A stretch of 64,000 nucleotides of DNA from a virus. The notes beneath the pieces are model-generated. The model was not told the origin of the DNA. It searched no databases and worked only from the letters and a program-made list of their open reading frames with translations. The position numbers and the translations under genes were made by a program. This document shows positions 77 to 35,221 of the stretch, one piece after another; within the stretch, counting starts at the first letter, position 1, and each line of letters begins with the position of its first letter. The stretch spans positions 25,734 to 89,733 of the IMG/VR virus record IMGVR_UViG_3300010430_000013; one strand, given 5' to 3'.

Positions 77-577
77 TCCCCTCGTCGCGGTGAGAACTTT
101 GTGACTAGGAAAATTACAAAAGCCCTATGTAATGTAGCCAAAGGTGATCTAGCTTATCTCCACATTGGCAACATGGACGCCAAAAGAGACTGGGGACATG
201 CTCGTGACTATGTAAGAGGAATGTATCTGATGCTCCAGCAGGATTCCCCAGAAGACTACGTTCTAGCCACAGGAGAACAGCACAGCGTCAGAGAATTCAT
301 CGAACTAGCCGCTTTAGAGTTAGGAATTGAGATTGGCTGGACAGGCAAAGGACTTAGTGAAGAGGGGTATGTTAAAAGACTGTTCGACACAAAATATGGA
401 GATCCACCACTTGTAGAAGACGAAGTCATTGTGGTTGTTAATGAAGAGTTCTATCGACCGACCGAAGTCGATACCTTGTTGGGCGACCCCAGCAAAGCCA
501 AGAAGGAACTCTCTTGGTATCCTCAGGTTTCATTTAAATCCCTCGTCTCTGAAATGGTGGAAGCCGACTATGACTAA
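2..577 (+). CDS. gmd: GDP-mannose 4,6-dehydratase, C-terminal part, preceded by intein end (partial)
   Basis: The reading frame is open from base 2, so the gene starts outside the window. From base 77 the protein matches the C-terminal half of GDP-D-mannose 4,6-dehydratase, the short-chain dehydrogenase that makes GDP-4-keto-6-deoxymannose for fucose, rhamnose or perosamine synthesis. Family landmarks are SPRRGENFVTRKI, NMDAKRDWGHARDYV and the FYRPTEVDTLLGDPSKA stretch. Bases 2-76 do not look like the enzyme; they look like an intein C-terminus (separate entry). The stop overlaps the next start by 8 bases. Family identity is secure. The sugar route cannot be decided because the partner gene is not visible. 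Confidence 0.93.
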   Translation, partial: SGWFFDLETSSGTFHAGIGQGVVHNSPRRGENFVTRKITKALCNVAKGDLAYLHIGNMDAKRDWGHARDYVRGMYLMLQQDSPEDYVLATGEQHSVREFIELAALELGIEIGWTGKGLSEEGYVKRLFDTKYGDPPLVEDEVIVVVNEEFYRPTEVDTLLGDPSKAKKELSWYPQVSFKSLVSEMVEADYD

Positions 578-755
578 CGATAGTCAAGGATATGGAGCAG
601 GAACATGTTTTAGATCTGGCCATGCGTTTGTTAAGATTTATGATAAGTCATACGGGGAAGCTGTGGGTGGACATGAGCCTACTTTTTTTAAAAGTATTGG
701 ATTTGGAACTAAAAACATCCTCATGATAAAAAAGCTTCTACTAAATAAAAAGTGA
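570..755 (+). CDS. Small protein of unknown function (61 aa)
   Basis: The ATG lies 8 bases inside the end of gmd, a typical coupled start. The product is hydrophilic and Gly/Lys-rich (begins MTNDSQGYGAG, ends KKLLLNKK). I recognise no domain or membrane segment. The first D-arm-like repeat lies 14 bases after the stop. Confidence 0.5.
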   Translation: MTNDSQGYGAGTCFRSGHAFVKIYDKSYGEAVGGHEPTFFKSIGFGTKNILMIKKLLLNKK

Positions 756-768
756 ACTCATTTTACAA

Positions 769-785
769 TCTAGCCAACTGAGCTA
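769..785 (+). repeat. D-arm-like repeat, copy 1
   Basis: Reads TCTAGCCAACTGAGCTA. Its reverse complement, TAGCTCAGTTGGCTAGA, is a tRNA D-arm sequence. It sits between the 61-aa gene and the gene at 792. Confidence 0.75.
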
Positions 786-791
786 AATACC

Positions 792-1010
792 ATGACCAGA
801 CCATATCGGGCGGTGATTGTCCTTGAGACTGACGACGGCTGGTGTGCAGCGGTCGCGGAATATGAGTCAGAGGAACTGTATTACGAGTGTTGCAGCGGTG
901 GTGAGTCATTCCCTGTGCCAGAAAGCGAAATCATGACAACCTGCAGACACCGTCACAGGTCGCCTGCGTCGTGTAGGCGATGTTGCTTACGCATGCAGAA
1001 GACGCTCTAG
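792..1010 (+). CDS. Small Cys-rich protein of unknown function (72 aa)
   Basis: First gene between the D-arm-like repeats. The N-terminus (MTRPYRAVIVLETDDGW) looks like a short beta strand pair. The C-terminal 25 residues are rich in Cys, Arg and His (CRHRHR, CRRCC) without a clean zinc-finger spacing. The TAG stop is supplied by repeat copy 2. Base composition is richer in G+C than the genes after 3180. Confidence 0.5.
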   Translation: MTRPYRAVIVLETDDGWCAAVAEYESEELYYECCSGGESFPVPESEIMTTCRHRHRSPASCRRCCLRMQKTL

Positions 1011-1022
1011 CCAACTGAGATA
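1004..1022 (+). repeat. D-arm-like repeat, copy 2
   Basis: Reads GCTCTAGCCAACTGAGATA. It contains the stop codon of the upstream gene (TAG at 1008-1010). GCTC...GAG(A) can form the short D-stem-like hairpin. Confidence 0.75.
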
Positions 1023-1051
1023 GGAAACCAAACGGAAGGAAACGAAACCAA

Positions 1052-1753
1052 ATGTTTAACCCAGAAACCGGAAAACGAATCCACCTCACTCACGGAGCAG
1101 GCAACGGCGTGGATAAAGCCTGCTTAATTACCGCTTCCAACATGCTGATTGGTCGCGGACAAGACGGCGACAACAATAGTTGCGTCTGCCCTGTCCTGCG
1201 GAAATTCATTATCACTACCAACGACTCGATGCCCGAAGATTTGCTCAGCGAACTCTACGGTCCACTCGCATGGGAAATCCTTGGCACCGCAACCGGTGAC
1301 CCTGCAACCGAACAGCAGCGTGCGTATCGCTTTGTGGACTGGGCGGTGCGGGAGATTACACCAATAGCATTAAGGGCATCAGGGATGGGTGACCACGCAT
1401 CAAAGCTGAAGGCGCTGTCGCCAGTGGTAGACCAGCAGACCGCCCGTGCCGTCGCCCGTGCCGCCAGTGCCGCCCGTGTCGCCCGTGCCGCCGCCCGTGC
1501 CGCCGATGCCGCCTATGCCGCCGCCGCCGTCGATGCCGCCGTCGATGCCGCCGTCGATGCCTCCGCTTATGCCGCCGCCCGTGCCGCCGCCCGTGCCGCC
1601 GCCAGTGCCGCCCGTGCCGCCCGTGCCGCCGATGCCGAATTGATCTGGCGAAAGTGCCCTGACATTATCCGCGAGGTAGCTGCGATTGGGGACAGGCGAC
1701 CTGTTGAGACTGTAATTGACCACTGCGATTTAGCAGCCGCTCTAGCCGACTGA
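1052..1753 (+). CDS. Protein with Ala/Arg/Asp low-complexity repeat (233 aa)
   Basis: Residues 1-130 are ordinary in composition (MFNPETGKRIHL..., with a run of helices). Residues about 131-196 are an alanine-dominated repeat of AARAA, VDAA and DAAYAA type, expected to be a continuous helix. A short unique tail ends in AAALAD. The stop (TGA) lies inside repeat copy 3. A start preceded by an A/G-rich GGAAGGAAACG stretch supports the chosen ATG. Similar Ala-repeat helices occur in planctomycete proteins, but I cannot assign a function. Confidence 0.65.
   Translation: MFNPETGKRIHLTHGAGNGVDKACLITASNMLIGRGQDGDNNSCVCPVLRKFIITTNDSMPEDLLSELYGPLAWEILGTATGDPATEQQRAYRFVDWAVREITPIALRASGMGDHASKLKALSPVVDQQTARAVARAASAARVARAAARAADAAYAAAAVDAAVDAAVDASAYAAARAAARAAASAARAARAADAELIWRKCPDIIREVAAIGDRRPVETVIDHCDLAAALAD
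1441..1638 (+). repeat. GCC-rich low-complexity coding repeat
   Basis: Imperfect tandem units of GCCGCCCGTGCC and GCCGTCGAT type encode the Ala/Arg/Asp helix of the 1052 gene. The same bases give Pro-rich and Gly-rich frames on either strand, which are by-products of the repeat. Unit number is likely to vary by slippage. Confidence 0.8.
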
Positions 1754-1757
1754 GCTA
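1739..1757 (+). repeat. D-arm-like repeat, copy 3
   Basis: Reads GCTCTAGCCGACTGAGCTA, one base different from the consensus. It encodes the last residues (ALAD) and stop of the 1052 gene. Confidence 0.75.
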
Positions 1758-1783
1758 GTTAACTAACCAGAAGGGAAATTGAA

Positions 1784-2041
1784 ATGGAACATCACGAAAA
1801 AGCAAACGAGCAGGAAGAACGTATCAAAGCACTCGAACAGATTGCGAGGCGATACCAATTCTTGCTTTCGCAATTCCAAATGCACTCGCCCGACATGGCT
1901 GGAGCGACTCGCTACCGGTTCCGCAATGGTGGCTGGCCTATGACACATTTTTGCGGCCCGACCATCGAGGCGGCGATTGATAATGCGATGTCGGAAGTAG
2001 AGCGGGAAAAAAAAGACACTCTAGCCAACGGAGCTAATTAA
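1784..2041 (+). CDS. Small coiled protein of unknown function (85 aa)
   Basis: The ATG follows an AAGGGAAATTGAA ribosome-binding region. Residues 1-30 (EHHEKANEQEERIKALEQI) have heptad character and probably form a helix. The rest contains a YRFRNGGWPMTHFCGPTIEAAIDNAM segment. The end (LANGAN) is encoded by repeat copy 4. No family recognised. Confidence 0.55.
   Translation: MEHHEKANEQEERIKALEQIARRYQFLLSQFQMHSPDMAGATRYRFRNGGWPMTHFCGPTIEAAIDNAMSEVEREKKDTLANGAN
2018..2036 (+). repeat. D-arm-like repeat, copy 4
   Basis: Reads ACTCTAGCCAACGGAGCTA. Two changes from the consensus, one of which breaks the outer GCTC/GAGC pairing. Lies at the 3' end of the 1784 gene. Confidence 0.65.
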
Positions 2042-2042
2042 C

Positions 2043-2141
2043 ATGAGAATGATTGCAATTGAACTTATTTGTGCCGGATTGCTGATGGCTCTTGGGGTAG
2101 TCAAGTTAATCGAAATCATACACGACGCTCTAGCCAACTGA
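2043..2141 (+). CDS. Single-pass membrane peptide (32 aa)
   Basis: An open frame of 32 residues, MRMIAIELICAGLLMALGVVKLIEIIH then DALAN. Nearly the whole peptide is one hydrophobic helix. The start overlaps nothing and has no strong Shine-Dalgarno sequence. The last four residues and stop come from repeat copy 5, the same position the repeat takes in its neighbours. That shared position is the main reason to believe it. Confidence 0.45.
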   Translation: MRMIAIELICAGLLMALGVVKLIEIIHDALAN

Positions 2142-2145
2142 GCTA
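2127..2145 (+). repeat. D-arm-like repeat, copy 5
   Basis: Reads GCTCTAGCCAACTGAGCTA, the consensus. The reverse complement continues as GGTTGTG-TAGCTCAGTTGGCTAGAGC-GTCGTG, which looks like the 5' third of a tRNA including acceptor spacing. Confidence 0.8.
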
Positions 2146-2167
2146 CACAACCAAGAGGTAATAAAAA

Positions 2168-2371
2168 ATGAACAAAATGCAATTGCAAAAGATTTCGAGC
2201 GACGTGTTCACGGTCAGCGTTGGCTGCGTGTCTATGGCGGTAGAGCTAGACAGCGATGACGAGAGGCATCGTCTCGTACTGCGAGACATGGTCGACGCAT
2301 ATAACGATGCCATTGAGTTTCGGACAGCCAAGGAACGGCATGCCGAATCACAATACAACAATACGCTATAG
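2168..2371 (+). CDS. Small protein of unknown function (67 aa)
   Basis: The ATG follows AAGAGGTAATAAAAA. The product (MNKMQLQKISSDVFTVSVGC...) is mixed alpha/beta and acidic in the middle (ELDSDDERH). Its TAG stop is inside repeat copy 6. No family recognised. Confidence 0.55.
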   Translation: MNKMQLQKISSDVFTVSVGCVSMAVELDSDDERHRLVLRDMVDAYNDAIEFRTAKERHAESQYNNTL

Positions 2372-2384
2372 CCAACTGAGCTGA
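2365..2384 (+). repeat. D-arm-like repeat, copy 6
   Basis: Reads GCTATAGCCAACTGAGCTGA. Contains the stop of the 2168 gene. Confidence 0.7.
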
Positions 2385-2389
2385 TAACT

Positions 2390-2596
2390 ATGAGTCGAGA
2401 AGAATATAGAAACTTGGAATACGCACTGGGCGGGCGCAAGGCAGCGGATAGGCATATAGCTTCGCGGTTACGTGAACTGGCGGATATTGTCGAATCAGAC
2501 GAGTGGCCAGACGTGATTAGCTGGCAAGACGATAGAGAGTTTGAGCCAATGATGACGACGGTAAAGCTGACGTTGTCACTGCCGCTGGGCGGGTAG
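2390..2596 (+). CDS. Small protein of unknown function (68 aa)
   Basis: MSREEYRNLEYALGGRKAADRHIASRLRELADIV... suggests a helical N-terminal half followed by an acidic stretch and a strand-like VKLTLSLPLGG end. The stop is provided by repeat copy 7. The ribosome-binding sequence is weak. Confidence 0.5.
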   Translation: MSREEYRNLEYALGGRKAADRHIASRLRELADIVESDEWPDVISWQDDREFEPMMTTVKLTLSLPLGG

Positions 2597-2610
2597 CCAA
2601 CTGAGCTAGA
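2592..2610 (+). repeat. D-arm-like repeat, copy 7, with a partial copy after it
   Basis: GGGTAGCCAACTGAGCTAGA carries the core and the stop of the upstream gene. A second, diverged half (GCTCTAGACAACT) follows at 2615-2627. Confidence 0.7.
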
Positions 2611-2646
2611 AAAAGCTCTAGACAACTAATAAAGGAAACCAAACTT

Positions 2647-3018
2647 ATGTCCAATAACAAACAGCCAAATAGACACGTCTGGTTCTTCCGCCTTGCAGGT
2701 GGAGGAAACCAATGCACTGAATACAGAACTAGTGAAAAAGAAGCCGCGATGCGTCTCTTGCACGACGAATATGGAGAAACCGCAGTCGATGCTGTTCGGC
2801 GGGAGTTGACGTTTTTTGAATACGCTGGACTGCTCCGGTGTAATTACGAGGGGTACGGGCGGCAGGTGTATCAAGCGTTGCAGGACTTCTTTTTTCGGTG
2901 CGACCCGCGAGGACATAAGGGCTTTGACGACGAGACGTTAATCCGGTCGCAGTCCGACATCCAAGCAGGCAGGGTGCTGTCCACGGAGGAATACCTTGAG
3001 GACTTAAGGAAAGACTAA
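2647..3018 (+). CDS. Protein of unknown function (123 aa)
   Basis: The ATG follows AAAGGAAACCAAACTT. Residues 1-45 (HVWFFRLAGGGNQCTEYRTSEKEAAMRLLHDEYGE) look like a small alpha/beta domain. The remainder is helical and charged. It is the last gene of the repeat-separated run. No family recognised. Confidence 0.6.
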   Translation: MSNNKQPNRHVWFFRLAGGGNQCTEYRTSEKEAAMRLLHDEYGETAVDAVRRELTFFEYAGLLRCNYEGYGRQVYQALQDFFFRCDPRGHKGFDDETLIRSQSDIQAGRVLSTEEYLEDLRKD

Positions 3019-3019
3019 C

Positions 3020-3038
3020 GTTCTAGCCAAATGAGATA
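3020..3038 (+). repeat. D-arm-like repeat, copy 8
   Basis: Reads GTTCTAGCCAAATGAGATA, the most diverged clear copy, directly after the 2647 gene stop. Confidence 0.6.
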
Positions 3039-8464: not shown

Positions 8465-8899
8465 ATGACTGATTTAGAAAAAGAAAAGTACATTAACGTT
8501 TCTGAGCGGCAAATTGATTTTAAGCCCATTACTGAAAGTGATTTTTTCGAATCTACGGAAGAAATGGTATACTCTGCCCAGGAAGCCGAACAAGTAGCGT
8601 CCCATCCATTATCTAATATTTACGCAAATAACTTGAGATGGGCGCTCAGTTCCTTTAATTTGTTCGAATTTCACACAAATTTTCCAATTACAGAGCAAGT
8701 TCTGGACACAATTGAAAAAACCGCAGGAGTTGAAAGCATTTCTCAGTATACTAAGTACCGTGGGATTATCAGCGTTGGGCGGCTTTTTGATGATGTTGTC
8801 GTCAGAAATGATATTCGAGAGGGTATTACCAAAACTTTCCAGAAGCAGAACGAAGACATCGAACCGCTTTTAAATGAACAAACTAAAGAGGAGGACTGA
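8465..8899 (+). CDS. Acidic protein of unknown function (144 aa)
   Basis: Predicted mainly helical, with acidic ends (MTDLEKEKY and NEQTKEED). It starts 3 bases after the preceding stop, so it is cotranscribed with it. No family recognised. Confidence 0.65.
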   Translation: MTDLEKEKYINVSERQIDFKPITESDFFESTEEMVYSAQEAEQVASHPLSNIYANNLRWALSSFNLFEFHTNFPITEQVLDTIEKTAGVESISQYTKYRGIISVGRLFDDVVVRNDIREGITKTFQKQNEDIEPLLNEQTKEED

Positions 8900-8902
8900 T
8901 AT

Positions 8903-8917
8903 GGTGTATATTATAAC
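8903..8917 (+). promoter_or_regulatory. Candidate phage promoter (GGTGTATATTATAAC)
   Basis: One of six sites sharing GGTGTA plus an A/T-rich -10-like segment. It lies about 50 bases upstream of the 8966 start. Confidence 0.4.
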
Positions 8918-8965
8918 AGGAATACCTTTATTTCTTGTTAATATAGCCAATAAGTGAGACAAATC

Positions 8966-9412
8966 ATGAGTGAGTTCATTCCGAATAATGCTGTGGATGG
9001 CAATCAGGTTGAAAGGGGCGCTATTTGGGGCGTAAAAAGCTCTAGCAACTCGGCTGCTGTGCAAGCACATTACTTTACTGCACTTCCTTCGGGTTCGACG
9101 GACGCTACCAGTTCGCTGGTTTGTAGCCCGTCAAACGTAGGTGATTATGCCTGTACCCCTTGGACTGGCAAAAACGTTGTCGATTATAATAGCTGTCAGG
9201 AGCAATTGTGCCCTGCTACGGCAGAAACTATCGCAGACAACACTGAGTCGTACACAGTAACCTTGTGGGACGACCAGCAAAAATGCGCAACAAAGTATCA
9301 GTTTGCTAGCTGTGGGGGAGACCCTAAAAGCGGTGAACCAATCACTTCCTGGGATGCTGCACAGGTGTCTGGAGTATCTGCTCCAGGTAGTGACGCAGAT
9401 CAAACAATTTAA
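8966..9412 (+). CDS. Cys-rich protein, possibly a virion component (148 aa)
   Basis: Ser/Thr/Ala-rich and strand-forming, with seven or more Cys (CSPSNVGDYACTPW, CQEQLCPA, KCATKYQFASC). This is the style of the minus-strand structural proteins of this genome. It has its own candidate promoter, consistent with high expression. I chose the ATG at 8966 over an upstream alternative at 8954. No family recognised. Confidence 0.6.
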   Translation: MSEFIPNNAVDGNQVERGAIWGVKSSSNSAAVQAHYFTALPSGSTDATSSLVCSPSNVGDYACTPWTGKNVVDYNSCQEQLCPATAETIADNTESYTVTLWDDQQKCATKYQFASCGGDPKSGEPITSWDAAQVSGVSAPGSDADQTI

Positions 9413-9899: not shown

Positions 9900-10329
9900 T
9901 ATTTATACTACAGAGGCCGGAACCGGTCAATTCTTGATGAATGATGCATCGGGGAATATGACTTGGTCTGACCCAGTTTACGCTTCTACAACGAACTCAG
10001 TCTACGATACTTGGTCTGGGACCAATCAATGGAACTACACAATAAAAGTTCCTAACCCTAATGAAGAACTCCCAGAAACATTAAAACAGATAACCGACCA
10101 CACTCTTGAAGAATGCTGGAAGGACTCACGAGTCAAGTGCTTTAGTTCTAGAGAAGAGCTATATTCCTACATCGACTCACTAGAATATGAGTCTACGGTT
10201 TTCTTCCATGAAGAGATTTCCAAAAAGGTAAAGCCTAAAACTATTCTTCATGTATTTAAAGATTATGGGCGAGTTGGACTAATCCTCAGTGGCGACTCAA
10301 GTGAAATTTTCTTCGTTAAAGATGAATAG
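9892..10329 (+). CDS. Protein of unknown function (145 aa)
   Basis: The first 45 residues are Gly/Ser/Thr/Trp-rich (GTGQFLMNDASGNMTW, DTWSGTNQW), like a virion surface segment. The rest is a soluble alpha/beta region (PETLKQITDHTLEECW, ILHVFKDYGRVGLILSGDS). The two halves look unlike each other, so it may be a fusion. Overlaps both neighbours. Confidence 0.55.
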   Translation: MSNIYTTEAGTGQFLMNDASGNMTWSDPVYASTTNSVYDTWSGTNQWNYTIKVPNPNEELPETLKQITDHTLEECWKDSRVKCFSSREELYSYIDSLEYESTVFFHEEISKKVKPKTILHVFKDYGRVGLILSGDSSEIFFVKDE

Positions 10330-10474
10330 CTCTGATTTAATCCCAATACTGGCTATGCTGCTGTATTCTACACAGGGCTTCATATTACTACATAAAAGGC
10401 AGTACGGATTTGCCTTAATGTGGTTTTCTTATGCTGTAGCAAACATCGGCATCTTAATTGCACAAAGAAAATAA
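10322..10474 (+). CDS. Small two-helix membrane protein (50 aa)
   Basis: Two hydrophobic segments (LIPILAMLLYSTQGFILL and YGFALMWFSYAVANIGILIA) are separated by HKRQ. A hairpin with this length and a short basic end is compatible with a holin-like or immunity peptide, but there is no direct support. The start overlaps the preceding gene by 8 bases. Confidence 0.55.
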   Translation: MNSSDLIPILAMLLYSTQGFILLHKRQYGFALMWFSYAVANIGILIAQRK

Positions 10475-10785: not shown

Positions 10786-13782
10786 ATGGAAAACAATCTT
10801 CCCACCCCTTACCAAGAGTTCATTCATCTTTCACGTTACGCTCGATGGCTTCCAGAAGAAAAAAGACGAGAGACTTGGGAAGAAACGGTTGATAGATTAG
10901 TTAACTTCTTTGAAGAGCACCTTAAGGAAAACTTTGACTTTGAGTTAGGCAAGGCAAAAAACCGCCTCCGCAAAGGAATCTTGAATCTTCAGGTTGTTCC
11001 AAGCATGAGGGCGCTTTGGGCTGCTGGTCCCGCTGCATCACGCGATAATGTGGCATGTTACAACTGTTCAGCTTTGCCTATCGACAAGCCCGCATCTTTT
11101 GATGAATTATTTTATATTTTAATGAATGGCTGTGGCGTCGGATTCTCAGTTGAACGACAGTTTATCAACAAGCTTCCTGAGGTGTCTGATAGCTTCCATG
11201 AGTCCGATACAACCATCGTGGTGAGTGATAGCACCATCGGCTGGTGCAAGGCGTTAAAAGAGCTTATAGGCATGCTCTACGTGGGGCAGGTTCCAAGATG
11301 GGATCTATCGAAGATTCGCCCTGCCGGAACTCCACTTAAAACCAAAGGCGGTCGAGCTTCTGGTGGCGAAATTCTCGGTCAACTGTTTGACTTTGTTGTA
11401 GTTACCTTTAAGGGTGCATCGGGCCGAAAGCTAAACTCTCTTGAGTGTCACGATATCTGCTGCAAAATTGCTGAAATCGTAACCGTCGGAGGTTGTCGCC
11501 GTTCAGCTTTGCTGAGTTTGTCCAATTTGTCAGATTTACGCATGAGAGAAGCAAAAGTTGGGCGTTGGTGGGAAGAAAGCGCTCAACGTGCAATGGCAAA
11601 CAACAGTGTGGCTTACACAGAAAAGCCAGATATGGGCATCTTTATGGAAGAATGGAAGTCCCTCTATGACAGTAAATCTGGCGAGAGAGGTATCTTTAAT
11701 CGGGAGTCTTGCAAAAAAATTATCGAAAAGATTGGTCGCAGGGATACTGATTTTGAGTTTTTAACTAATCCGTGTGTCACATCTGATACATGGATTGATA
11801 CTTCCGAAGGTCCGATTCAAGCATTCAATCTGATCAACAAGCCATTTCTGGCAACAGTAAATGGAAAAAATTATGAATGTAAAACAGGTTTCTTTAAAAC
11901 GGGACATAAAGATGTTTACGAAATCGAAACCTCTCGCGGATACTCAATTAAATGCACCTCTGACCACAAAATCTTAACAATTAAAGAAGGTCAAGAGCTT
12001 TGGGTTGAGGCGCAACATCTAGACGAGAGTTCAAATATCTGTATTAATCAGCTTGTTCATCAGGATGATTACGATTTGGATTTGAATGAATTTCATCAAG
12101 GTTGGCTAATGGGGGAAGTAGCTGGAGACGGCGGTCACAATCCTGAAAAATATCCTTCGTATGTCAGATTCTGGGGACATAATCGACATCAAATGTCGTC
12201 TATGGCTCACGATTTCGTTAAAGATTTGCCTTATGATTCGCACAGGCCAACAGCGCTTGCTGATGATCCCACTGACAACGGAACTTATAGTCAATCGGCC
12301 AGCAGAGCGCTTGACGAGCTACTGGAGGGCATGCTTGAGCCAGAAACCAAGAATATCCTGCCAGCCCTAGAGGGGGCGTCAGACTCTACTGTGAGAGGCT
12401 TCTTGAGGGGCATTTTTGATGCTGATGGAACCGTGCTTTTTAATAAAGAGAAGGGGCGCTCAGTAAGGCTTGGTCAGAACAATTTAGACCGACTTAAGTC
12501 AGTTCAGAGAATGCTGCATCGTTTTGGTATTGAGTCTTCGGTTTATCAAAATCGAAAACCTGAAGGTTATTACGAAATGCCTGACGGAAAAGGAGGTAAT
12601 AAAGAATACTTCTGTAAGGCTATGCATGAACTGGCTATCTCTCGTGAAAACATTTGCAAGTTTGCAGAATTAATTAATTTTTATGATGCTGACAAAAAAA
12701 CAAAACTAACTGAGTGCATTGATTCGTTAAGTCGAACTCCGTATAAAGACAAAATGACCACGAATTTCGTGTCTCGTCGTCATATCGGTCAGCAAGACGT
12801 TTATGATTGCACAGTGGATGAAGTGCATCGGTTTGGAGCGAATGGAATTATTATTCATAATTGTAGCGAAATATTACTCAGACCTCGTGGATTCTGTAAC
12901 CTCTCAGAAGTAATCCTTAGGGAGGATGATACAGAAGAAACAATCCTTGAAAAGATTGAACTAGCAACAATTCTTGGAACCATCCAAAGCACCTTTACTA
13001 ATTTTCGCTATCTTAGCAAAAACTGGAAGAAGAACGCAGACGAAGAGCGACTGCTTGGTGTTTCGATGACTGGAATTATGGACTGTCCTCTTACGAATGA
13101 TTCCGTAGAAGGTCTTGAAGGAAGGTTAGAGAGATTCAAAGAAAGGGCCATTGAAGTAAATAAAAAATGGGCAAAGTCTATTGGTATTAATCAGTCTGCT
13201 GCTATTACCTGCGTTAAACCGTCAGGCAATACTTCACAGCTTTGCGACACTGCAAGTGGAATTCATACTCGTCACTCTCCTTACTACATCAGAACGGTTA
13301 GGTCTGACAAAAAAGACCCGCTAACCAAACTAATGATTGATAAGGGGTTTCCATATGAGGACGAAATTAACAATCCTCAAAATATTGCAGTGTTTAGTTT
13401 TCCAATTAAAGCTCCTGAGCAATCGTTTTTTAGAAATGATAAGACCGCTCTTGAGCAGCTAGAGCTTTGGAAGAAGTATCAGTTGCATTACTGTGAGCAT
13501 AAGCCATCTATTACGGTTTCGGTAAAAGAAGACGAATGGCTTGAGGTTGGTGCCTGGGTTTATAAAAACTTTGATTTGATGAGCGGCGTTTCTTTCTTGC
13601 CGTTCAGTGATCATGTCTATAAGCAAGCGCCTTATCAGGATTGCACTAAAGAACAATACGAAGAGCTTTTGGCAAAGATGCCGAAAACTATTGACTGGTC
13701 TGAACTATCTGCTTACGAGTCCTCGGATATGACTACCGGAGCACGAGAATTAGCATGTACTGCTGGAGGCTGCGAAATTTGA
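10786..13782 (+). CDS. nrdJ: Class II (adenosylcobalamin-dependent) ribonucleotide reductase, monomeric type, with intein
   Basis: The product reduces ribonucleotides to deoxyribonucleotides with a B12 radical and supplies DNA precursors. Family landmarks are CYNCSALPID with GCGVGFSVE in the N-terminal part, NPC/SEILL with CNLSEV around the thiyl-radical cysteine, VKPSGNTSQL, and the C-terminal redox pair CTAGGC just before the end. Residues 330-692 are an intein. Without it the enzyme is 635 aa, somewhat shorter than the roughly 740-residue Lactobacillus enzyme. The position of the C-terminal CxxxxC fits the monomeric RTPR-like branch. The stop overlaps the next gene's TTG start. Confidence 0.93.
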   Translation: MENNLPTPYQEFIHLSRYARWLPEEKRRETWEETVDRLVNFFEEHLKENFDFELGKAKNRLRKGILNLQVVPSMRALWAAGPAASRDNVACYNCSALPIDKPASFDELFYILMNGCGVGFSVERQFINKLPEVSDSFHESDTTIVVSDSTIGWCKALKELIGMLYVGQVPRWDLSKIRPAGTPLKTKGGRASGGEILGQLFDFVVVTFKGASGRKLNSLECHDICCKIAEIVTVGGCRRSALLSLSNLSDLRMREAKVGRWWEESAQRAMANNSVAYTEKPDMGIFMEEWKSLYDSKSGERGIFNRESCKKIIEKIGRRDTDFEFLTNPCVTSDTWIDTSEGPIQAFNLINKPFLATVNGKNYECKTGFFKTGHKDVYEIETSRGYSIKCTSDHKILTIKEGQELWVEAQHLDESSNICINQLVHQDDYDLDLNEFHQGWLMGEVAGDGGHNPEKYPSYVRFWGHNRHQMSSMAHDFVKDLPYDSHRPTALADDPTDNGTYSQSASRALDELLEGMLEPETKNILPALEGASDSTVRGFLRGIFDADGTVLFNKEKGRSVRLGQNNLDRLKSVQRMLHRFGIESSVYQNRKPEGYYEMPDGKGGNKEYFCKAMHELAISRENICKFAELINFYDADKKTKLTECIDSLSRTPYKDKMTTNFVSRRHIGQQDVYDCTVDEVHRFGANGIIIHNCSEILLRPRGFCNLSEVILREDDTEETILEKIELATILGTIQSTFTNFRYLSKNWKKNADEERLLGVSMTGIMDCPLTNDSVEGLEGRLERFKERAIEVNKKWAKSIGINQSAAITCVKPSGNTSQLCDTASGIHTRHSPYYIRTVRSDKKDPLTKLMIDKGFPYEDEINNPQNIAVFSFPIKAPEQSFFRNDKTALEQLELWKKYQLHYCEHKPSITVSVKEDEWLEVGAWVYKNFDLMSGVSFLPFSDHVYKQAPYQDCTKEQYEELLAKMPKTIDWSELSAYESSDMTTGARELACTAGGCEI
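11773..12861 (+). other. LAGLIDADG intein in nrdJ (363 aa)
   Basis: It begins at Cys330 (CVTSDTWIDTSEGPIQAF, block A), has a TSDHKIL block B histidine, and two LAGLIDADG-type helices (WLMGEVAGDGG near residue 450, FLRGIFDADGTV near 545). It ends VYDCTVDEVHRFGANG and IIIHN followed by Cys693. Both splice-junction cysteines and the terminal His-Asn are present, so splicing should work. The +1 cysteine corresponds to the thiyl-radical cysteine of RNR, a common intein site because it is invariant. Confidence 0.92.
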
Positions 13783-28718: not shown

Positions 28719-29099
28719 ATGGCTAACTCTTACAATCACTCGGTTCTGGTCGGCAACGTTGTTCGTGATACGGAAATTCGCGATGCCGGAAAGTCTAAGG
28801 TAGCAGACAATGCTATCGCCATTACGGAGACTTTCGGGGAAAAGGAAGTAACAACATTTGTTGACATTACTCTTTGGGGACGAAATGCTGAAACGTTTCA
28901 GAAGTTCTGCCCTAAAGGTCGCACGGTCTTGATTGAAGGCTCTCTTCGTCAAGACAAGTGGACAGACAACGACGGCAACAAACGTTCTAAAATGTTTGTT
29001 AATGTCGACCGATTTGTTCTTTTAGGCTCAAAGCCTGGCGGTGGTCAGCAGCAGGAAACTGTTGCGGCAGGAGCAGGCTCGGATGATCTCCCCTTCTAA
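28719..29099 (+). CDS. ssb: Single-stranded DNA-binding protein
   Basis: An OB-fold SSB of bacterial type: NHSVLVGNVVRDTEIRD, FVDITLWGRNAETFQKFCPKGRTVLIEGSLRQDKW. The C-terminal tip DDLPF is the acidic protein-interaction motif that contacts primase, polymerase and exonucleases. AGGAGG lies upstream of the ATG. A strong terminator follows. Confidence 0.93.
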   Translation: MANSYNHSVLVGNVVRDTEIRDAGKSKVADNAIAITETFGEKEVTTFVDITLWGRNAETFQKFCPKGRTVLIEGSLRQDKWTDNDGNKRSKMFVNVDRFVLLGSKPGGGQQQETVAAGAGSDDLPF

Positions 29100-29130
29100 G
29101 CCTCCCTCTCGCTTAGAAGGCACTTCGATG

Positions 29131-29164
29131 CGCCTGCGTGCTCGTAGCACGCAGGCGTTTTTTA
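29131..29164 (+). terminator. Strong rho-independent terminator after ssb
   Basis: A perfect 11-bp stem (CGCCTGCGTGC with GCACGCAGGCG), loop TCGTA, then six T. Confidence 0.93.
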
Positions 29165-29181
29165 TTCTTTTGGAGTTGTTT

Positions 29182-30687
29182 ATGTATCACCCCGGCGTAA
29201 TGACTCACGGCTCTGTTTTGCAAAGTGCAGTACACCCGGAGCATATTCAGGATTTTATCAATAATTCTGACTACTCCATGCTGCCAATCCTTGACTGGAA
29301 TCTTAGTCAGGCTTACCCGTATATAGACTCGACCGAACAACCTGTAATCGGTCTATTGAAAAACTTTACACAAGATAATGTTGAGATAACCTGCGCCCTC
29401 TATGCCCTCAATCGAAAGGGGTTTGGCGAGCTGCTCAGAATATCCAACGGGCTCCCAATTGCGGATAATTGCAAGAATATTGCAGCACTCTCGCCGGAAG
29501 CTTTAAATATCCCGGATCTTGAAGATATTGACCTGCATATCAAGACATTCAATCCTATAGCCCCAGCGCTCGTTCTAAGGGACTCTCAGCTTGATCACCA
29601 TAAGGTACTCATTAACAAAGCAAAAGGCGAATACGACGCGCCTGTGCCCCTAGAAAACGATGTTACCGATTGGTCTTGTTTAGCGCCGCTTTATGAGGCC
29701 GTAGAGAAATACAGTTTGGACAACAATCCTAGGCTTCCTCACTTTCCAACGGGAGACAAAACTGAAGACGAATTTCTCCGCGAACTCTGCGTTAAATCCT
29801 TAAAAGATAAAAATTTAGAGAGTGAAATATACCTTAGCCGTTTAAATTATGAGCTACAGACGTTCGAAAACGCCGGAATGAGTGGTTATTTCCTAATTAT
29901 GTGGGATATTTGCCGCTTTATTCAGGAGAGTGGCTCTATGTTGGGGGCTGGTCGTGGGTCTGCTGCGGGTTGTTTAGCGAGTTATCTGCTGGGCGTTACT
30001 AAAGTTGACCCGATTAAGTACGACCTAATCTTCGAAAGATTCTATAATCCTGACCGAAAGGGCGTACCCGATATCGATTGCGACATTGTGCCGGAATTTA
30101 GACCTAAAGTTATTGATTATTTAAGAGACAAGTATGGTTCCGAGAAAGTTGCACAGCTTTGCACTTACACTACTTTTAAAGGTCGAGGAGCCCTCAAAGA
30201 AACCCTAAAGCAACACGGAATGTCGCACGCAGAGGCAAATAAGGTAACTGAATGCCTTCATGAAGAATCTAAAATTGATCCACAGCTCAAAGACCAGTAT
30301 AATTCATTAGGGACTAAAAGTGTGCTTCTGTACACTTTAATGCATAGTCGAAGACTCGATTTCTGGTGTAAATTTAATAGGAAGACAAGTAAATACACTG
30401 GTAAGTGGGCGGATGCCTTCAAACTGGCAGTTGAGATGGACAGAACTAATATTGCAATTGGCAAACACGCTTCGGCTTTTATTCTGTCAGATAGAAATTT
30501 GCTAGATCAGTGTCCTGTTATACCAGATCCGGCCAACGGGCCTCACCCAGTTTGTGGCTGGGAAATGAATGCGGCAGAAAGATCAGGTTTGGTTAAGTTG
30601 GATTTGTTGGGACTGGACTGCTTGTCTAAATACCAAAGAAGCAGAGAAGTCATATCTAGTAAATCAATCTACTTGGAGGCCATATAA
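29182..30687 (+). CDS. dnaE-N: DNA polymerase III alpha, N-terminal piece
   Basis: Residues about 1-200 are a degenerate PHP-like region without its HxH metal site. The palm domain follows: GAGRGSAAGCLASYLLG near residue 256, GVPDIDCDI near 295 and VKLDLLGLDCLSKY near 471. These carry all three catalytic aspartates of a C-family polymerase. The frame stops at residue 501, just after the third, where other DnaE proteins continue into the fingers. ATG 29182 has TTGGAG upstream and is preferred over longer in-frame starts overlapping ssb. It needs the second piece to be a complete enzyme. Confidence 0.88.
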   Translation: MYHPGVMTHGSVLQSAVHPEHIQDFINNSDYSMLPILDWNLSQAYPYIDSTEQPVIGLLKNFTQDNVEITCALYALNRKGFGELLRISNGLPIADNCKNIAALSPEALNIPDLEDIDLHIKTFNPIAPALVLRDSQLDHHKVLINKAKGEYDAPVPLENDVTDWSCLAPLYEAVEKYSLDNNPRLPHFPTGDKTEDEFLRELCVKSLKDKNLESEIYLSRLNYELQTFENAGMSGYFLIMWDICRFIQESGSMLGAGRGSAAGCLASYLLGVTKVDPIKYDLIFERFYNPDRKGVPDIDCDIVPEFRPKVIDYLRDKYGSEKVAQLCTYTTFKGRGALKETLKQHGMSHAEANKVTECLHEESKIDPQLKDQYNSLGTKSVLLYTLMHSRRLDFWCKFNRKTSKYTGKWADAFKLAVEMDRTNIAIGKHASAFILSDRNLLDQCPVIPDPANGPHPVCGWEMNAAERSGLVKLDLLGLDCLSKYQRSREVISSKSIYLEAI

Positions 30688-30899
30688 TGGCAGATTCTAT
30701 TACATATGGTCAGTTGACGGTTGGCCAGAAATATACTCTCGTTAATGGAGAGGACACAGATACAATTTGGCTTAAAATCAAAACTCAAACAAAAGGCTGC
30801 TGCCGTAATCGAAAGGTTGTGGCGAATGCTCGTAATTCTGTGGATGCTACTAAAACAGCAATCCATAAACCAAGCGATAAGGTCGTGGTTGTCGGTTAA
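30687..30899 (+). CDS. Small protein of unknown function (70 aa)
   Basis: TAATG overlap with dnaE-N and a GGAGG upstream. The product (SITYGQLTVGQKYTLVNGEDTDTIWLKIK) looks like a small beta barrel. A terminator follows, so transcription from the dnaE-N side largely ends here. Confidence 0.6.
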   Translation: MADSITYGQLTVGQKYTLVNGEDTDTIWLKIKTQTKGCCRNRKVVANARNSVDATKTAIHKPSDKVVVVG

Positions 30900-30928
30900 T
30901 CAATAAAAGATAAATTGATTCTTTTTTG

Positions 30929-30968
30929 AACCCGCTGACTGACCTATAGGCTTTTGGCGGGTTTTTTT
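30929..30968 (+). terminator. Rho-independent terminator
   Basis: AACCCGC pairs with GCGGGTT across a 21-base loop that can fold further, followed by seven T. It lies between the two pieces of the polymerase gene. Confidence 0.75.
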
Positions 30969-30990
30969 ACTTCTTAAATAAGGATTTATT

Positions 30991-31194
30991 ATGGCTAGAT
31001 TTGACTGGGTTCCTTTTGGTGAGCAATTCCGATTTGAGGGGGATATGTTCAAAAAGATAGATTTCGATACCGCTGAGAATATGTTCACAGGCGACTTTCA
31101 GCGTTTTGACTCGATGCAGCAAGTAGAGTACGAAGACTACGAAGAAGAAGCGATGGACGTATTCGCGCTTGATGACGATAACTTGGACTGGTAA
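30991..31194 (+). CDS. Acidic small protein (67 aa)
   Basis: N-terminal half MARFDWVPFGEQFRFEGDMFKKIDF, C-terminal half very acidic (YEDYEEEAMDVFALDDDNLDW). The acidic aromatic end could be a clamp- or SSB-like protein-contact tail or a DNA mimic. An ATAAGGATT sequence precedes the start. Confidence 0.55.
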   Translation: MARFDWVPFGEQFRFEGDMFKKIDFDTAENMFTGDFQRFDSMQQVEYEDYEEEAMDVFALDDDNLDW

Positions 31195-31198
31195 TCTT

Positions 31199-31990
31199 AT
31201 GAAGAAAGTATGCGGCAAGTGCAAGACAGAGAAGCTCACGGAGGAGTTTTACAAAAATAAGTCAACGAAAGACGGCTATGCTGGTTGTTGCAAGTCTTGC
31301 CACACGTCATACTTAGACGCATACAAACAAAGAAATATAAAGATACCAGAAGAAAAAACTTGTTATAAATGTAAAAAGACAAAATCCAAAGACTGCTTTA
31401 GTAAAATGAAGCAAGCTAAGGACGGCTTACAGCAATCATGCAAAGAGTGTTGTAAAAAATACAAAGAGTCTCTAAAGAATAGAGAAGATAAAGCTGAATC
31501 AAAAGCATGCCCAAGTTGTAAGGTTCTTTTAAGTTCTTCCGAATTTAATTCTTTTTGTTATAGCGCTGACGGACTTTCTGTCTATTGTAAAGAGTGTACA
31601 AAAAAGAAAAAAACAGAATATCTTCCAGTAAGACGAAAAAGGAAAAAATTTAGATATGATAATGACGTTCAATACAAAATAAAAGACTCCTTAAGAAAAA
31701 GAATTCGCGTTGCCCTTAAAGGTAAAGCAAAATCAAAAGCCACAATAGCTCTTTTGGGGTGCTCCGTAGATTTTTTAAAAACATATCTAGAAAATAAATT
31801 TGAATCTGGAATGACGTGGGAGAATTACGGAATTGATGGTTGGCACATAGATCATATAATTCCTTGTTCTGCATTCGACTTAACTGATCCAGAGCAACAA
31901 GGGCTTTGTTTTCATTACACGAACCTTCAGCCTTTATGGGCTGAGGACAACATTAAAAAAAGCAACTCACTGAATTGGAGAAAAAGATGA
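31199..31990 (+). CDS. HNH homing-type endonuclease with zinc repeats (263 aa)
   Basis: Three N-terminal zinc units share C-x-x-C-K, a Phe, DG and CKxC (CGKCKTEKLTEEFYKNKSTKDG, CYKCKKTKSKDCFSK, CPSCKVLLSSSEF). A basic linker and then the HNH core WHIDHIIPCSAFDL...HYTNLQPLWAEDN follow. This is the layout of free-standing phage HNH homing endonucleases. Its place between two polymerase fragments suggests it took part in the split. ATGA overlap with the exonuclease gene. Confidence 0.87.
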   Translation: MKKVCGKCKTEKLTEEFYKNKSTKDGYAGCCKSCHTSYLDAYKQRNIKIPEEKTCYKCKKTKSKDCFSKMKQAKDGLQQSCKECCKKYKESLKNREDKAESKACPSCKVLLSSSEFNSFCYSADGLSVYCKECTKKKKTEYLPVRRKRKKFRYDNDVQYKIKDSLRKRIRVALKGKAKSKATIALLGCSVDFLKTYLENKFESGMTWENYGIDGWHIDHIIPCSAFDLTDPEQQGLCFHYTNLQPLWAEDNIKKSNSLNWRKR

Positions 31991-32688
31991 TTTTAGTTAC
32001 GGATTTGGAGACAATAGACTTAAATAAAAATAAGGTTTCTCATGAGACTGCAATTCCCGTACAACTTGCGGCCATCCCTCTGGATGAGAATTCTCTGGAG
32101 ATTATCGACGACCCTCTGTGTATGTGGATTAATCCTGGCGAAGAAATACTTAATTCACCGTCCTTTTATCAAGATTACTCAAATGTTTTGGCCTTTCATG
32201 AAAAAGCACAAGGTAAACCAAAAGAGGAACTTGTCGAACTCTGGCGCTCAGGATTGGCCACGAGAGACGCGATGAAAGAATTTAAGGATTACGTTAAGTC
32301 TTATACCAAGGGCTCAAAAAAAGCATATTTTGGAGGTATGAACGTCAGAAATTTCGACATACCTATTCTAGAGCGTTTAATCGACAAAGGCTGGCCCTTT
32401 GCTAAAGTTAAGACTTGGGATATTAGAGACGTTGCCCAAATGTGGTTCGAATATTCTCGCAACCCACCTAAGTTGAACGGTAGAGTCAGCTATAGCTTCG
32501 ACTCTTTGCGTCAATACTTTGATATGAGCACAGAGAATGCTCACGACGCCCTTGTTGACGTTAGGCAAGAAGCAGACCTGCTCAGAAGATTTTTACGACT
32601 TCAGAAGAACCTAATGACTTACGGTTATCAACACAGAGACCAAAAGGCATTTGCTTGGGCTAAAGTTCTTCATGGAGTTAAGTCTTGA
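31987..32688 (+). CDS. DnaQ-like 3'-5' exonuclease (DEDD family)
   Basis: Exo I VTDLETIDL (Asp and Glu), Exo II GGMNVRNFDIPIL (Asp) and Exo III AHDALVDVRQEADL (His and Asp) are all present. With a C-family polymerase encoded on both sides, this is the likely proofreading subunit; RNase T-like activity is the alternative. It is coupled by overlapping codons to an HNH gene at each end. Confidence 0.85.
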   Translation: MILVTDLETIDLNKNKVSHETAIPVQLAAIPLDENSLEIIDDPLCMWINPGEEILNSPSFYQDYSNVLAFHEKAQGKPKEELVELWRSGLATRDAMKEFKDYVKSYTKGSKKAYFGGMNVRNFDIPILERLIDKGWPFAKVKTWDIRDVAQMWFEYSRNPPKLNGRVSYSFDSLRQYFDMSTENAHDALVDVRQEADLLRRFLRLQKNLMTYGYQHRDQKAFAWAKVLHGVKS

Positions 32689-33281
32689 GCTTAGGCGATA
32701 AGATTAAAGCGCTAAGAAATAAAGGATATTCTTACAACGAAATAGCAAAAGAGCTTGGTTGCTCTAAAGGCACTGTTTCGTATCATTGTGGAGAGGGTCA
32801 AAAGGATAAGGCAGAAGCCAGAAGAAAAAAACGAAGGAAAGAAAAGCCTGTCGACAGAAAGGTTGAAAATTTTCATGCTGAGAGAACATCATCCTTTGAA
32901 CAATCTATTGTTAGAAATAATAACGAAAGAATTTCAGGGAAGATAGCGCTTTTTCATAGTTGTGGGAGTAGAATGAAAACTAAATATACACCAAGAACCT
33001 TCAGCGTGAGCGAAGCAAAAGAACTACTAGAAGAACGAGGAGTTTGTTATTTGACTGGAGATCCAATCGACCCAGAAGACAGTCAATCTTATCATTTTGA
33101 TCACATTAAGCCAAGGTCCGCAGGGGGAGAAAATACAATCGATAATTTAGGAATTTCTTCACCAGAGGCTAATTATGCCAAGGGAAGCATGGAATTTGAG
33201 GACTTCATAAAAATGTGTCATAAAATAGTGAAGAGATATCCTGATCCAGAAGACCCAAGACCAAAACACGAAAGGGGCTGA
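32685..33281 (+). CDS. HNH endonuclease with N-terminal HTH (198 aa)
   Basis: It starts at a TTG overlapping the preceding TGA. The N-terminal helix-turn-helix is KGYSYNEIAKELGCSKGTVSYHC, then a very basic linker. The HNH core is GVCYLTGDPIDPEDSQSYHFDHIKPRSAGGENTIDNLG...AN. This is a homing-type or mobile endonuclease unrelated in layout to the 31199 one. Its stop overlaps the start of the structured RNA. Confidence 0.82.
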   Translation: MSLGDKIKALRNKGYSYNEIAKELGCSKGTVSYHCGEGQKDKAEARRKKRRKEKPVDRKVENFHAERTSSFEQSIVRNNNERISGKIALFHSCGSRMKTKYTPRTFSVSEAKELLEERGVCYLTGDPIDPEDSQSYHFDHIKPRSAGGENTIDNLGISSPEANYAKGSMEFEDFIKMCHKIVKRYPDPEDPRPKHERG

Positions 33282-33410
33282 AATAGTTTCGATTCGAAGT
33301 CAAGTGATGCGTCTGCCGTGGGAGGCAAAAAGGTCTAACTGCACTAGCAAAAAAGCCTTGGCGTTATCAGCAGCTTTTGAAGACCTCGGGGCAGGACCGA
33401 GCAGCTCCAC
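33274..33410 (+). ncRNA. tmRNA-like structured RNA (about 137 nt)
   Basis: The 5' end GGGGCTGAAATAGTTTCGA is close to the conserved tmRNA start (GGGGCTG, spacer, TTCGA). The 3' end CAGCTCC-A pairs with GGGGCTG as a 7-bp acceptor-like stem. It is directly preceded by a 5-bp T-arm-like hairpin (CTCGG, 7-base loop, CCGAG). GGTCT (33332) and AGACC (33381) enclose an internal segment whose reading frame contains AKKALALSAAF-like residues, reminiscent of a tag. A T-run follows. Against a normal tmRNA: it is very short, the T-loop is not TTCRA, and no tag stop fits. It could be a reduced tmRNA or another tRNA-like RNA. Confidence 0.45.
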
Positions 33411-33429
33411 TTTTTTCAAAGGAGAAGCA

Positions 33430-33633
33430 ATGGGTGAATTTTTTGTAGAGGCCATTTTTGGCATGATAGTGTCTGCGGTTATTGTAACCGCGCTTGTTGT
33501 GGGAGGAGTTACGTTTGCCGTGACTTGGTATTTCAGTCAACCTCCTTCAGAAGCTCAAGTCTTAAAAGAAGGGCAACGACAACAAGTTATCGAAAAACTT
33601 ACACCTGAAGAACGAGAATTGCTGGGCGTTTAA
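33430..33633 (+). CDS. Single-pass membrane protein (67 aa)
   Basis: I use the ATG with AAAGGAGAA upstream rather than a longer frame that would read through the structured RNA. A hydrophobic segment (FGMIVSAVIVTALVVGGVTFAVTWYF) at residues 9-34 is followed by a charged tail (EAQVLKEGQRQQVIEKLTPEERELLGV). Function unknown. Confidence 0.65.
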   Translation: MGEFFVEAIFGMIVSAVIVTALVVGGVTFAVTWYFSQPPSEAQVLKEGQRQQVIEKLTPEERELLGV

Positions 33634-33634
33634 T

Positions 33635-35221
33635 ATGATTTTTGATTGTGGGTGCGAATTTCACCAAACAGAAGACGGCGGCTGGACTTGGGACGACGAG
33701 AATATTAATTTTCAATGTCCAAAAGTTTGGAGGTTAATTTGTTCTGGCAATACGTCTGGCGTCTTTCAGCTGGACGCTATGCTGGGTCAACATTGGTCCA
33801 GGCAGGTCAAGCCAGAAAACATTAATGAATGGTCTGATCTTATTGCTATTATCCGTCCTGGTATGCTGGAAGCTATCGTGGACGGAAAGAGCCAGACTCA
33901 GCGCTATGTTGACAGAAAACACGGCAAAGAGAGTGTCGCGTTCGACCATCCAAAGCTAGAGGAGGTTCTAGGACCAACTCAAGCTACCATGCCGTTTCAA
34001 GAGCAAGCCATGAGAATCGCCACAGACTTGGCGGGGTTCACAATGGCCGAGTCGGATACTTACATTCGCAAGGGTATCGGCAAGAAGATTCCTGAGGTGA
34101 TTGCCAAAGCCAAGGAAATGTTCATCGAGGGATGCCTCAAGAATAATATCTCCAAAGAATTAGCCGAAAGAATCTTTACGTCTATCGAGGCTGCACAGCG
34201 ATATTCGTTCAATAGGTCACACAGTCTTAGTTACGCTCTGGATGGTTATATTTATTCAGCATATATCAAAGCGCATTTTCCGCTGGAGTTTCATTGCACA
34301 GAATTAGACTTTGCTAAGGGCAAGCAGCCTAAGACTGACCTTGAGGCCGTCTGTGACATCATCGAGGATGCCCTAAAGATGGACATCAAGGTTATGAAAC
34401 CCGACCTTAGATATTTAAATGAAAGATTTTCTATAGTTGACGGCACCATCCTTTACGGCTTAACTAAGATAAAGCATCTCGGTCCCGATAAAATTCGAGC
34501 ACTTCCAGAGCTGAAAGACGCTACTTACATAGAGCTTATCGCTGCCTTAGACAAAATAAACAAAACTTCCGCAGAAAACTTAATCAAAAGCGGGTCTTGT
34601 GATTGGATCAAAGCGCCTCGTTCTAAAATGTTGGCAGACTATGCGGCTTACTCCAAGCTAAATGTGCAGCAAAAAGAAGTTTGTGTAGAAGAATCTGACG
34701 TTCTTAAGGGAATTCAAAAAATTATAGAAATTGGGCCGTCCACCAAGAGCAAGCTGTGCTATAATAAAGTGTCGCTAAAAAAATTAAAGGAACTTGAGAA
34801 TCTCCTCGTGAATCCAATCCGACAGCCAAAAGACACCCCTCAAAAGATTATTGACTGGGAAAAGGAAACACTTGGGCGCTCATTTACTTTTGATGAGGCT
34901 TTGACTCGTTATTGGGATGGGAATTACAAAGAGTTGATTGATGTTAAGCATCATTCTGTCCCCCTAAAAGATCAATTCCTGTTGAGCGCGGTTCTCAGGG
35001 ACTTTAAAGAAATTTACACCAAGAAAAAACAAGAACCTATGGCTCGAATAACTGTTTACAGTTTAGATTGGGTCAGTGATGCGGTTATATTTCCTAGGGC
35101 TTGGGAATTGTGCAAGCATGCGATTGAATCTAATGTCGGCCAGCCGCTTTTATTCAAAGCCAGAATGAATTTCTACAACGAGCAATGGGGCCTAGTAATC
35201 GAGGAGATAGAAGATGTCTAG
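33635..35221 (+). CDS. dnaE-C: DNA polymerase III alpha, C-terminal piece
   Basis: It takes up the polymerase where dnaE-N ends: CPKVWRLICSGNTSGVFQLDAM, IIRPGMLEAI, the fingers segment YIRKGIGKKIPEVI and YSFNRSHSLSYALDGYIYSAYIKAHFP are all DnaE signatures. The later part has a helix-hairpin-helix (YGLTKIKHLGPDKI) and an OB-like C-terminal region. About 30 N-terminal residues (FDCGCEFHQTEDGGWTWD) have no clear match. Together the pieces give 1029 aa, near normal DnaE length. No intein residues flank the break. Confidence 0.87.
   Translation: MIFDCGCEFHQTEDGGWTWDDENINFQCPKVWRLICSGNTSGVFQLDAMLGQHWSRQVKPENINEWSDLIAIIRPGMLEAIVDGKSQTQRYVDRKHGKESVAFDHPKLEEVLGPTQATMPFQEQAMRIATDLAGFTMAESDTYIRKGIGKKIPEVIAKAKEMFIEGCLKNNISKELAERIFTSIEAAQRYSFNRSHSLSYALDGYIYSAYIKAHFPLEFHCTELDFAKGKQPKTDLEAVCDIIEDALKMDIKVMKPDLRYLNERFSIVDGTILYGLTKIKHLGPDKIRALPELKDATYIELIAALDKINKTSAENLIKSGSCDWIKAPRSKMLADYAAYSKLNVQQKEVCVEESDVLKGIQKIIEIGPSTKSKLCYNKVSLKKLKELENLLVNPIRQPKDTPQKIIDWEKETLGRSFTFDEALTRYWDGNYKELIDVKHHSVPLKDQFLLSAVLRDFKEIYTKKKQEPMARITVYSLDWVSDAVIFPRAWELCKHAIESNVGQPLLFKARMNFYNEQWGLVIEEIEDV

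Follow-up and report, generated by a model that had tools for sequence, protein, structure and literature searches.

The window, a stretch of 64,000 nucleotides corresponding to positions 25734-89733 of a virus record that is 89,733 bases long, harbored an array of seven small genes, each followed on its 3' side by a near-identical tag of 15-22 letters. The 18-mer CTCTAGCCAACTGAGCTA was encountered in eight copies with zero to three mismatches, all on the + strand and spanning positions 768-3038. These copies, designated W1 to W8, start at 768, 1005, 1740, 2019, 2128, 2366, 2591 and 3021. The features of the region are the following:

570..755, + strand: backbone ORF of 61 aa to the left of the array, making no use of the repeat and as low in G+C as the rest of the phage
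768..785, + strand: repeat W1, left border of the array, lacking the GACGCTC flank (repeat search, alignment)
792..1010, + strand: cassette gene 1, 72 aa, stopped by the TAG of W2; no Pfam or PHROG match
1005..1022, + strand: repeat W2, left border of the homology common to a second phage
1052..1753, + strand: cassette gene 2, 233 aa, with an alanine-rich repeat region, stopped by the TGA of W3
1740..1757, + strand: repeat W3, right border of the shared homology, then the leader GTTAACTAACCAGAAGGGAAA, also found at one second-phage copy
1784..2041, + strand: cassette gene 3, 85 aa, which runs through W4 because the TGA of W4 is mutated (CGG), and stops at a TAA just beyond
2019..2036, + strand: repeat W4 (repeat search)
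2043..2141, + strand: cassette gene 4, 32 aa, hydrophobic, with C-terminus -DALAN, stopped by the TGA of W5
2128..2145, + strand: repeat W5, the exact 18-mer (repeat search)
2168..2371, + strand: cassette gene 5, 67 aa, stopped by the TAG of W6
2366..2383, + strand: repeat W6, variant GCTGATAAC-ATG, the same variant occurring at one second-phage copy
2390..2596, + strand: cassette gene 6, 68 aa, stopped by the TAG of W7
2591..2608, + strand: repeat W7, lacking the GACGCTC flank (repeat search, alignment)
2615..2640, + strand: probable decayed second copy (GCTCTAGACAACTAATAAAGGAAACC)
2647..3018, + strand: cassette gene 7, 123 aa; no Pfam or PHROG match
3021..3038, + strand: repeat W8, right border, with low-G+C phage genes beyond (repeat search)

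All eight recurrences listed in the original prediction were recovered, its starts being right within one or two bases. Shuffles yielded a mean of 0.02 matches to CTCTAGCCAACTGAGCTA and a maximum of one, against the eight observed, which ruled out a chance origin of the copies. A decayed ninth copy probably occupies 2619-2633, 25 nt past the seventh; the tract that contains it may be what remains of a lost cassette. When sought in the rest of the genome, the motif turned out to be confined to the array: no + strand match to its 15-mer core with up to two mismatches was present elsewhere in the whole 89.7-kb record, which displayed a single isolated two-mismatch match on the - strand (window position 57449). 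A scan of IMG/VR for the exact 18-mer returned at least 119 stretches, nearly all of them inside tRNA genes recognized by ARAGORN. Among the fetched tRNA loci, the core most commonly belonged to tRNA-Ala(TGC), Lys(TTT), Met(CAT) and Thr(TGT); stretches missed by ARAGORN were few and resembled tRNA genes by eye. The exact 18-mers elsewhere in IMG/VR are real tRNA D-arms, and the earlier identification of the reverse complement of the repeat as a D-arm was right. A motif equally frequent in unrelated coding sequence, which had been named beforehand as counter-evidence, was seen neither in the shuffles nor in the IMG/VR scans.

A second array was retrieved from IMG/VR with a pattern designed against tRNA genes, namely the core followed by AACCA and ATG in that order. 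It is located in IMGVR_UViG_3300010430_000383 (27,981 bases), a phage encoding an HK97-type major head protein, and comprises five copies on one strand. The first gene of this array has a repeat on its 3' side and none on its 5' side, so that the unit is defined as a gene plus its 3' repeat; at the end of the array, a convergent gene is stopped by the final repeat, read on its reverse strand. The two known arrays have one cassette in common. By blastn it covered 766 columns at 73% nucleotide identity, from W2 to W3 in the window and from Lc to Ld in the second phage; the homology opens at window position 995, a few bases 5' of W2, and closes at 1757 with the final base of W3, and the genes on either side are unrelated between the two phages. 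Its alanine-rich protein (cassette gene 2) displayed 71% overall identity to the 225-aa protein of the second phage, with 75% and 84% over the two conserved ends. Other similarity between the phages, according to an all-against-all comparison of open frames, amounted to one small protein (61-64%) and weak tail-type similarity. With further junction patterns, IMG/VR yielded the second array again, one unrelated coding match and no other array, and scans of bacterial genome contigs revealed no further arrays. Protein scans of IMG/VR recovered the second array and two distant homologues without repeats. Globally, the distant homologues of the shared protein, on two IMG/VR contigs and in one fecal phage, were all devoid of repeats.

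Apart from the shared alanine-rich protein, the cassette proteins were unrelated to one another, both within and between arrays, in agreement with the earlier description of the genes between repeats as unrelated. No Pfam, PHROG or PADLOC match of weight was obtained for the cargo families; a phage collection contained no match for the array DNA or for four other cassette proteins, plasmids contained none for the alanine-rich protein, and the AlphaFold2 model of the latter (pLDDT 43) was unusable. Cargo genes of such regions often encode counter-defence or host-takeover proteins. The G+C content of the array was 0.534, or 0.495 without the alanine-rich gene, and none of 1,659 other stretches of equal length in the record (maximum 0.489) reached either value, so that the higher G+C first noticed for these genes is confirmed against the whole record. 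The whole records displayed 0.424 for the window phage and 0.548 for the second phage, the latter being near the array value. Third-position G+C was 0.53-0.62 in six of the seven cassette genes and 0.45 in the 32-aa gene, against 0.37-0.44 in three neighbouring genes outside the array. Since its G+C exceeds that of any equal-sized stretch of the genome, the window array was probably imported. The phylum Planctomycetota can be offered as a guess at the host, from one export-signal-like N-terminus at 6796; Pfam models gave no support for this N-terminal motif.

Alignment of the 13 copies of both arrays reduced the conserved unit to the almost invariant 15-mer TAGCCAACTGAGCTA, the complement of tRNA positions 8-21. 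A weaker GACGCTC flank precedes the core and is absent from W1, W7 and the second-phage copy La; the leaders on the 3' side are loosely conserved, and flanks beyond 15-22 nt are not conserved. The core carries stops in each frame (TAG at 0, TGA at 8 and TAA/TAG/TGA at 13), and three-frame stops were present in 10 of the 13 copies; copies ending in G instead of the last A keep a stop (GCTGA). Nine of the 12 upstream genes of both arrays terminated inside the 15-mer, four with TAG and five with TGA, which bears out the claim that the repeat supplies the stop or last codons of the upstream gene. A shared -ALAN/-ALAD C-terminus (degradation tag) does not account for the conservation and was rejected, since the core is read in two frames as a gene end and some copies sit beyond the stop. 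Pure selection for three-frame stops was insufficient alone, since all 15 core bases are conserved, those of stop codons and the others equally. This pattern suggests that a sequence which is bound or paired is under selection, beyond the needs of recombination at chance homology, and hints that something may also recognize the core.

The exact match to the D-arm led us to infer that the repeat derives from a tRNA gene. A tRNA gene or remnant at the locus itself was discarded: ARAGORN and Rfam RF00005 detected none in the window or in either virus record, and the repeat flanks contain no cloverleaf. The original prediction had proposed either an array of exchangeable cassettes or an RNA-processing hairpin. 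According to the latter, the transcript or its antisense would fold as a D-arm and be cut or bound by tRNA enzymes, and the antisense strand does display the exact D-arm sequence; the D-arm is nevertheless on the non-mRNA strand and has no tRNA-like flanks. D-stem pairs were formed in 71% of the cells of the 13-copy alignment, with no excess over shuffles. The stem was incompletely formed in about half of the copies and no compensatory change was found in any of the 13. An alternative 4-bp stem was better kept than the D-stem, yet without covariation, and at six junctions folding energies were no better than those of shuffles. From these pair counts, the missing covariation and the folding energies, a hairpin or D-arm mimic was rejected and is considered very improbable. 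The cassette half of the proposal stood, owing to the second array and to a shared homology running from repeat to repeat.

Four copies had the next start 6 nt past the core and seven had it 20-63 nt away; for two copies no next gene was assigned. The motif AACCA-(A/G-rich)-ATG, said beforehand to follow often, was displayed as AACCA plus a purine-rich leader ahead of the start by about half of the copies; in another four, the start lies exactly 6 nt after the core. The core consensus GACGCTCTAGCCAACTGAGCTA of the 13 copies contains no AGGAG or 16S-complementary core and no strong Shine-Dalgarno sequence, which is carried instead by the leader 3' of it. The leader types GTYAACTAACCA and ATAACYATGAG were each encountered in both phages ahead of unrelated genes. 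This sharing of leader subtypes gave permutation p values of 0.0007 and 0.0003, the best two of 91 pairs and marginal after correction. A longer stretch comprising leader and core matched between the phages with a blastn E value of 1e-8. Two promoter-like sites were counted in 2.9 kb against 2.4 expected, non-sigma70 promoters not being covered, and terminator-like sites were at shuffle level.

These data also bear on a second explanation, in which the repeat would be a regulatory connector (a binding site, or a translation or transcription signal at gene starts, comparable to start-associated sequences, SAS, or to phage promoters) and the shared cassette would have moved once, together with its connectors, by ordinary illegitimate transfer. 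The occurrence of the repeat at every gene boundary in one orientation only, the conservation of 15 out of 15 bases and the start codon placed exactly 6 nt past the core in four copies would all suit such a role. The SAS of Cluster K mycobacteriophages, which may include the upstream stop, offers a similar case (PMC3203893). A connector is less easily reconciled with a distance to the next start ranging from 6 to 63 nt, with a Shine-Dalgarno sequence situated in the leader rather than in the core, and with promoter-like and terminator-like sites at shuffle level. Moreover, the repeats are restricted to the imported block and absent from the other genes of the phage. On balance, a regulatory connector was judged rather unlikely.

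The interpretation preferred here, and held to be fairly probable, is that the region is an imported array of cassettes, each a gene plus its 3' joint, exchanged by homologous recombination or by short-homology annealing. The tags look like joints for the swapping of small genes between phages. Each cassette would consist of one short gene and a 3' joint of 15-22 bp that is complementary to a tRNA D-arm. This joint would have two roles. By closing the upstream gene in any frame (TAG, TGA, TAA/TAG/TGA), while the next gene can start past a short leader, it would allow a gene to be spliced in without damage and properly ended. As repeated DNA, it would also provide a stretch common to otherwise unrelated arrays, at which homologous recombination or short-homology annealing could add, remove or exchange single cassettes. 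The model is built on the following observations: the repeats exist and serve as stops in two frames, they recur in a second array, the shared cassette is bordered by a repeat at each end, and the G+C content is foreign. Except for that one shared repeat-to-repeat unit, cassette content differs between the two arrays. Several points count against it: the arrays known are only two, with a single cassette in common; RecA-type recombination would have little to work with in 15-22 bp; breakpoints fall naturally at gene ends in any case; and conservation extends to all 15 bases and not just to stop codons.

Regarding the machinery, exchange at the joint would appear to proceed via homologous recombination and not via a dedicated recombinase. 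Genes for a RecA/UvsX-like recombinase and for a PD-(D/E)XK nuclease are present in the window phage, and this pair fits homologous exchange. A dedicated site-specific recombinase acting on the D-arm sequence in an integron-like manner, with its enzyme provided by the host, a helper element or the missing part of the phage genomes, was considered improbable. Units of a gene plus a 3' repeat, in a single orientation and of foreign G+C, do recall integron cassettes; the core is kept as a fixed sequence, and tRNA genes are common targets of integrases. Against such an enzyme, neither a tyrosine recombinase (PF00589) nor a resolvase (PF00239) was detected in either record, both of which may be fragments, and the repeat displayed no attC-like second half and no conserved inverted repeat beyond 4 bp.

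The swapping of small genes by phages without breakage of operons is an old question of modular evolution. If the cassette-exchange model is correct, a standard joint that closes genes in any frame and recurs in unrelated phages would constitute a concrete and testable answer, and it would explain how tRNA-like sequence builds up in phages without tRNA genes. In practice, the 22-mer is a handle for the collection of cargo genes. More tentatively, and rather doubtful for now, the arrays may represent a phage system of mobile cassettes that has not been described before and works without an integrase, the D-arm complement serving both as a frame-independent stop and as a recombination joint. D-arm sequence occurs in nearly every bacterial genome as well as in the tRNA clusters of phages, and such joints would therefore make a cassette homologous to almost any partner.

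No description of such an element was found in the literature that was searched. It seems to work like the PeSL (promoter early stem-loop) and to look like the SAS, while missing defining features of PeSL, SAS and integron cassettes. PeSL, attributed to Arbiol et al. 2010 and Comeau et al. 2014, are reportedly short intergenic repeats between small variable phage genes, with an early promoter and a stem-loop terminator. According to a passage in PMC4503421, they are thought to mediate modular shuffling in T4-type phages. The present repeat likewise lies between small variable genes, and content differs between the two arrays, from which shuffling itself would follow. In contrast to PeSL, it displayed no detectable early promoter (two sites against 2.4 expected in 2.9 kb, for sigma70-type sites) and no detectable stem-loop terminator, and it is a D-arm complement that provides the upstream stop codon.

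The SAS/ESAS of Cluster K mycobacteriophages are 13-bp asymmetric repeats found in one orientation at gene starts, sometimes including the upstream stop and conserved across phages ahead of different genes; their function is unknown (PMC3203893). They lie 3-7 bp ahead of the start, contain AGGAG and occur throughout the non-structural half of the genome (PMC3203893). The repeats described here are also asymmetric, of single orientation and associated with non-structural genes. They differ from SAS by their distance to the start (6-63 nt instead of 3-7 bp), by a core without AGGAG or 16S complementarity and by their restriction to one imported block.

With integron cassettes they share units of a gene plus a 3' site, a single orientation, a foreign composition and occurrence in unrelated replicons. 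Unlike integrons, the two records, possibly fragments, displayed no IntI-type tyrosine recombinase (PF00589), and the repeats have no attC fold with paired R and L boxes, their stems being without covariation; the conserved core is merely 15 bp long and is located in phages. Lambdoid phages have short conserved boundary or linker sequences at gene boundaries, which have been proposed as guides of modular recombination. Those linkers differ from joint to joint, whereas here one sequence serves every joint.

Besides the alanine-rich cassette gene, the only close gene common to both phages encoded a small protein with a RRLWKWHGKTLSGLA motif, which displayed 61-64% identity between the copies of the second phage contig (G001) and that of the window's own record (L139, cited here for coordinates outside the window).

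L147:8013-8387 and 8641-9060, RRLWKWHGKTLSGLA-motif protein, two copies in G001
L139:3446-3772, RRLWKWHGKTLSGLA-motif protein, window's record
L139:3900-9400, succession of short ORFs whose repeats are glycine-rich and of the GYG type
Window 1052-1753, L127:8391-9068 (G001) and contigs L148, L151 and L152, alanine-rich repeat protein family

After the array, the glycine-rich ORFs made up the most G+C-rich part of the record. The alanine-rich family had three distant members in other phage contigs (L148, L151 and L152). Each of them sat at the end of its contig, where assembly had probably been broken by the repeat.

Two genes of the window phage were interrupted or divided. An intein with a LAGLIDADG domain was inserted in the ribonucleotide reductase gene, and DNA polymerase III alpha was encoded by two separate open frames (29041-35221), between which three ORFs were assigned by eye; this split perhaps reflects an intron, or homing elements dividing the gene.

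Window 10786-13782, ribonucleotide reductase with intein
Window 29041-30687, DNA polymerase III alpha, NTPase part
Window 31169-31990, HNH-like ORF
Window 31975-32688, exonuclease-like ORF
Window 32685-33281, second HNH-like ORF
Window 33635-35221, DNA polymerase III alpha, finger part

Outside the window, the same record carried a reverse transcriptase gene (Pfam RVT_1) matching an Ec107-like retron reverse transcriptase in PADLOC (1.7e-34). Two direct repeats just upstream may be part of the non-coding RNA of this reverse transcriptase.

L139:10173-10218 and 10310-10355, 46-nt direct repeats
L139:10399-11103, retron-type reverse transcriptase
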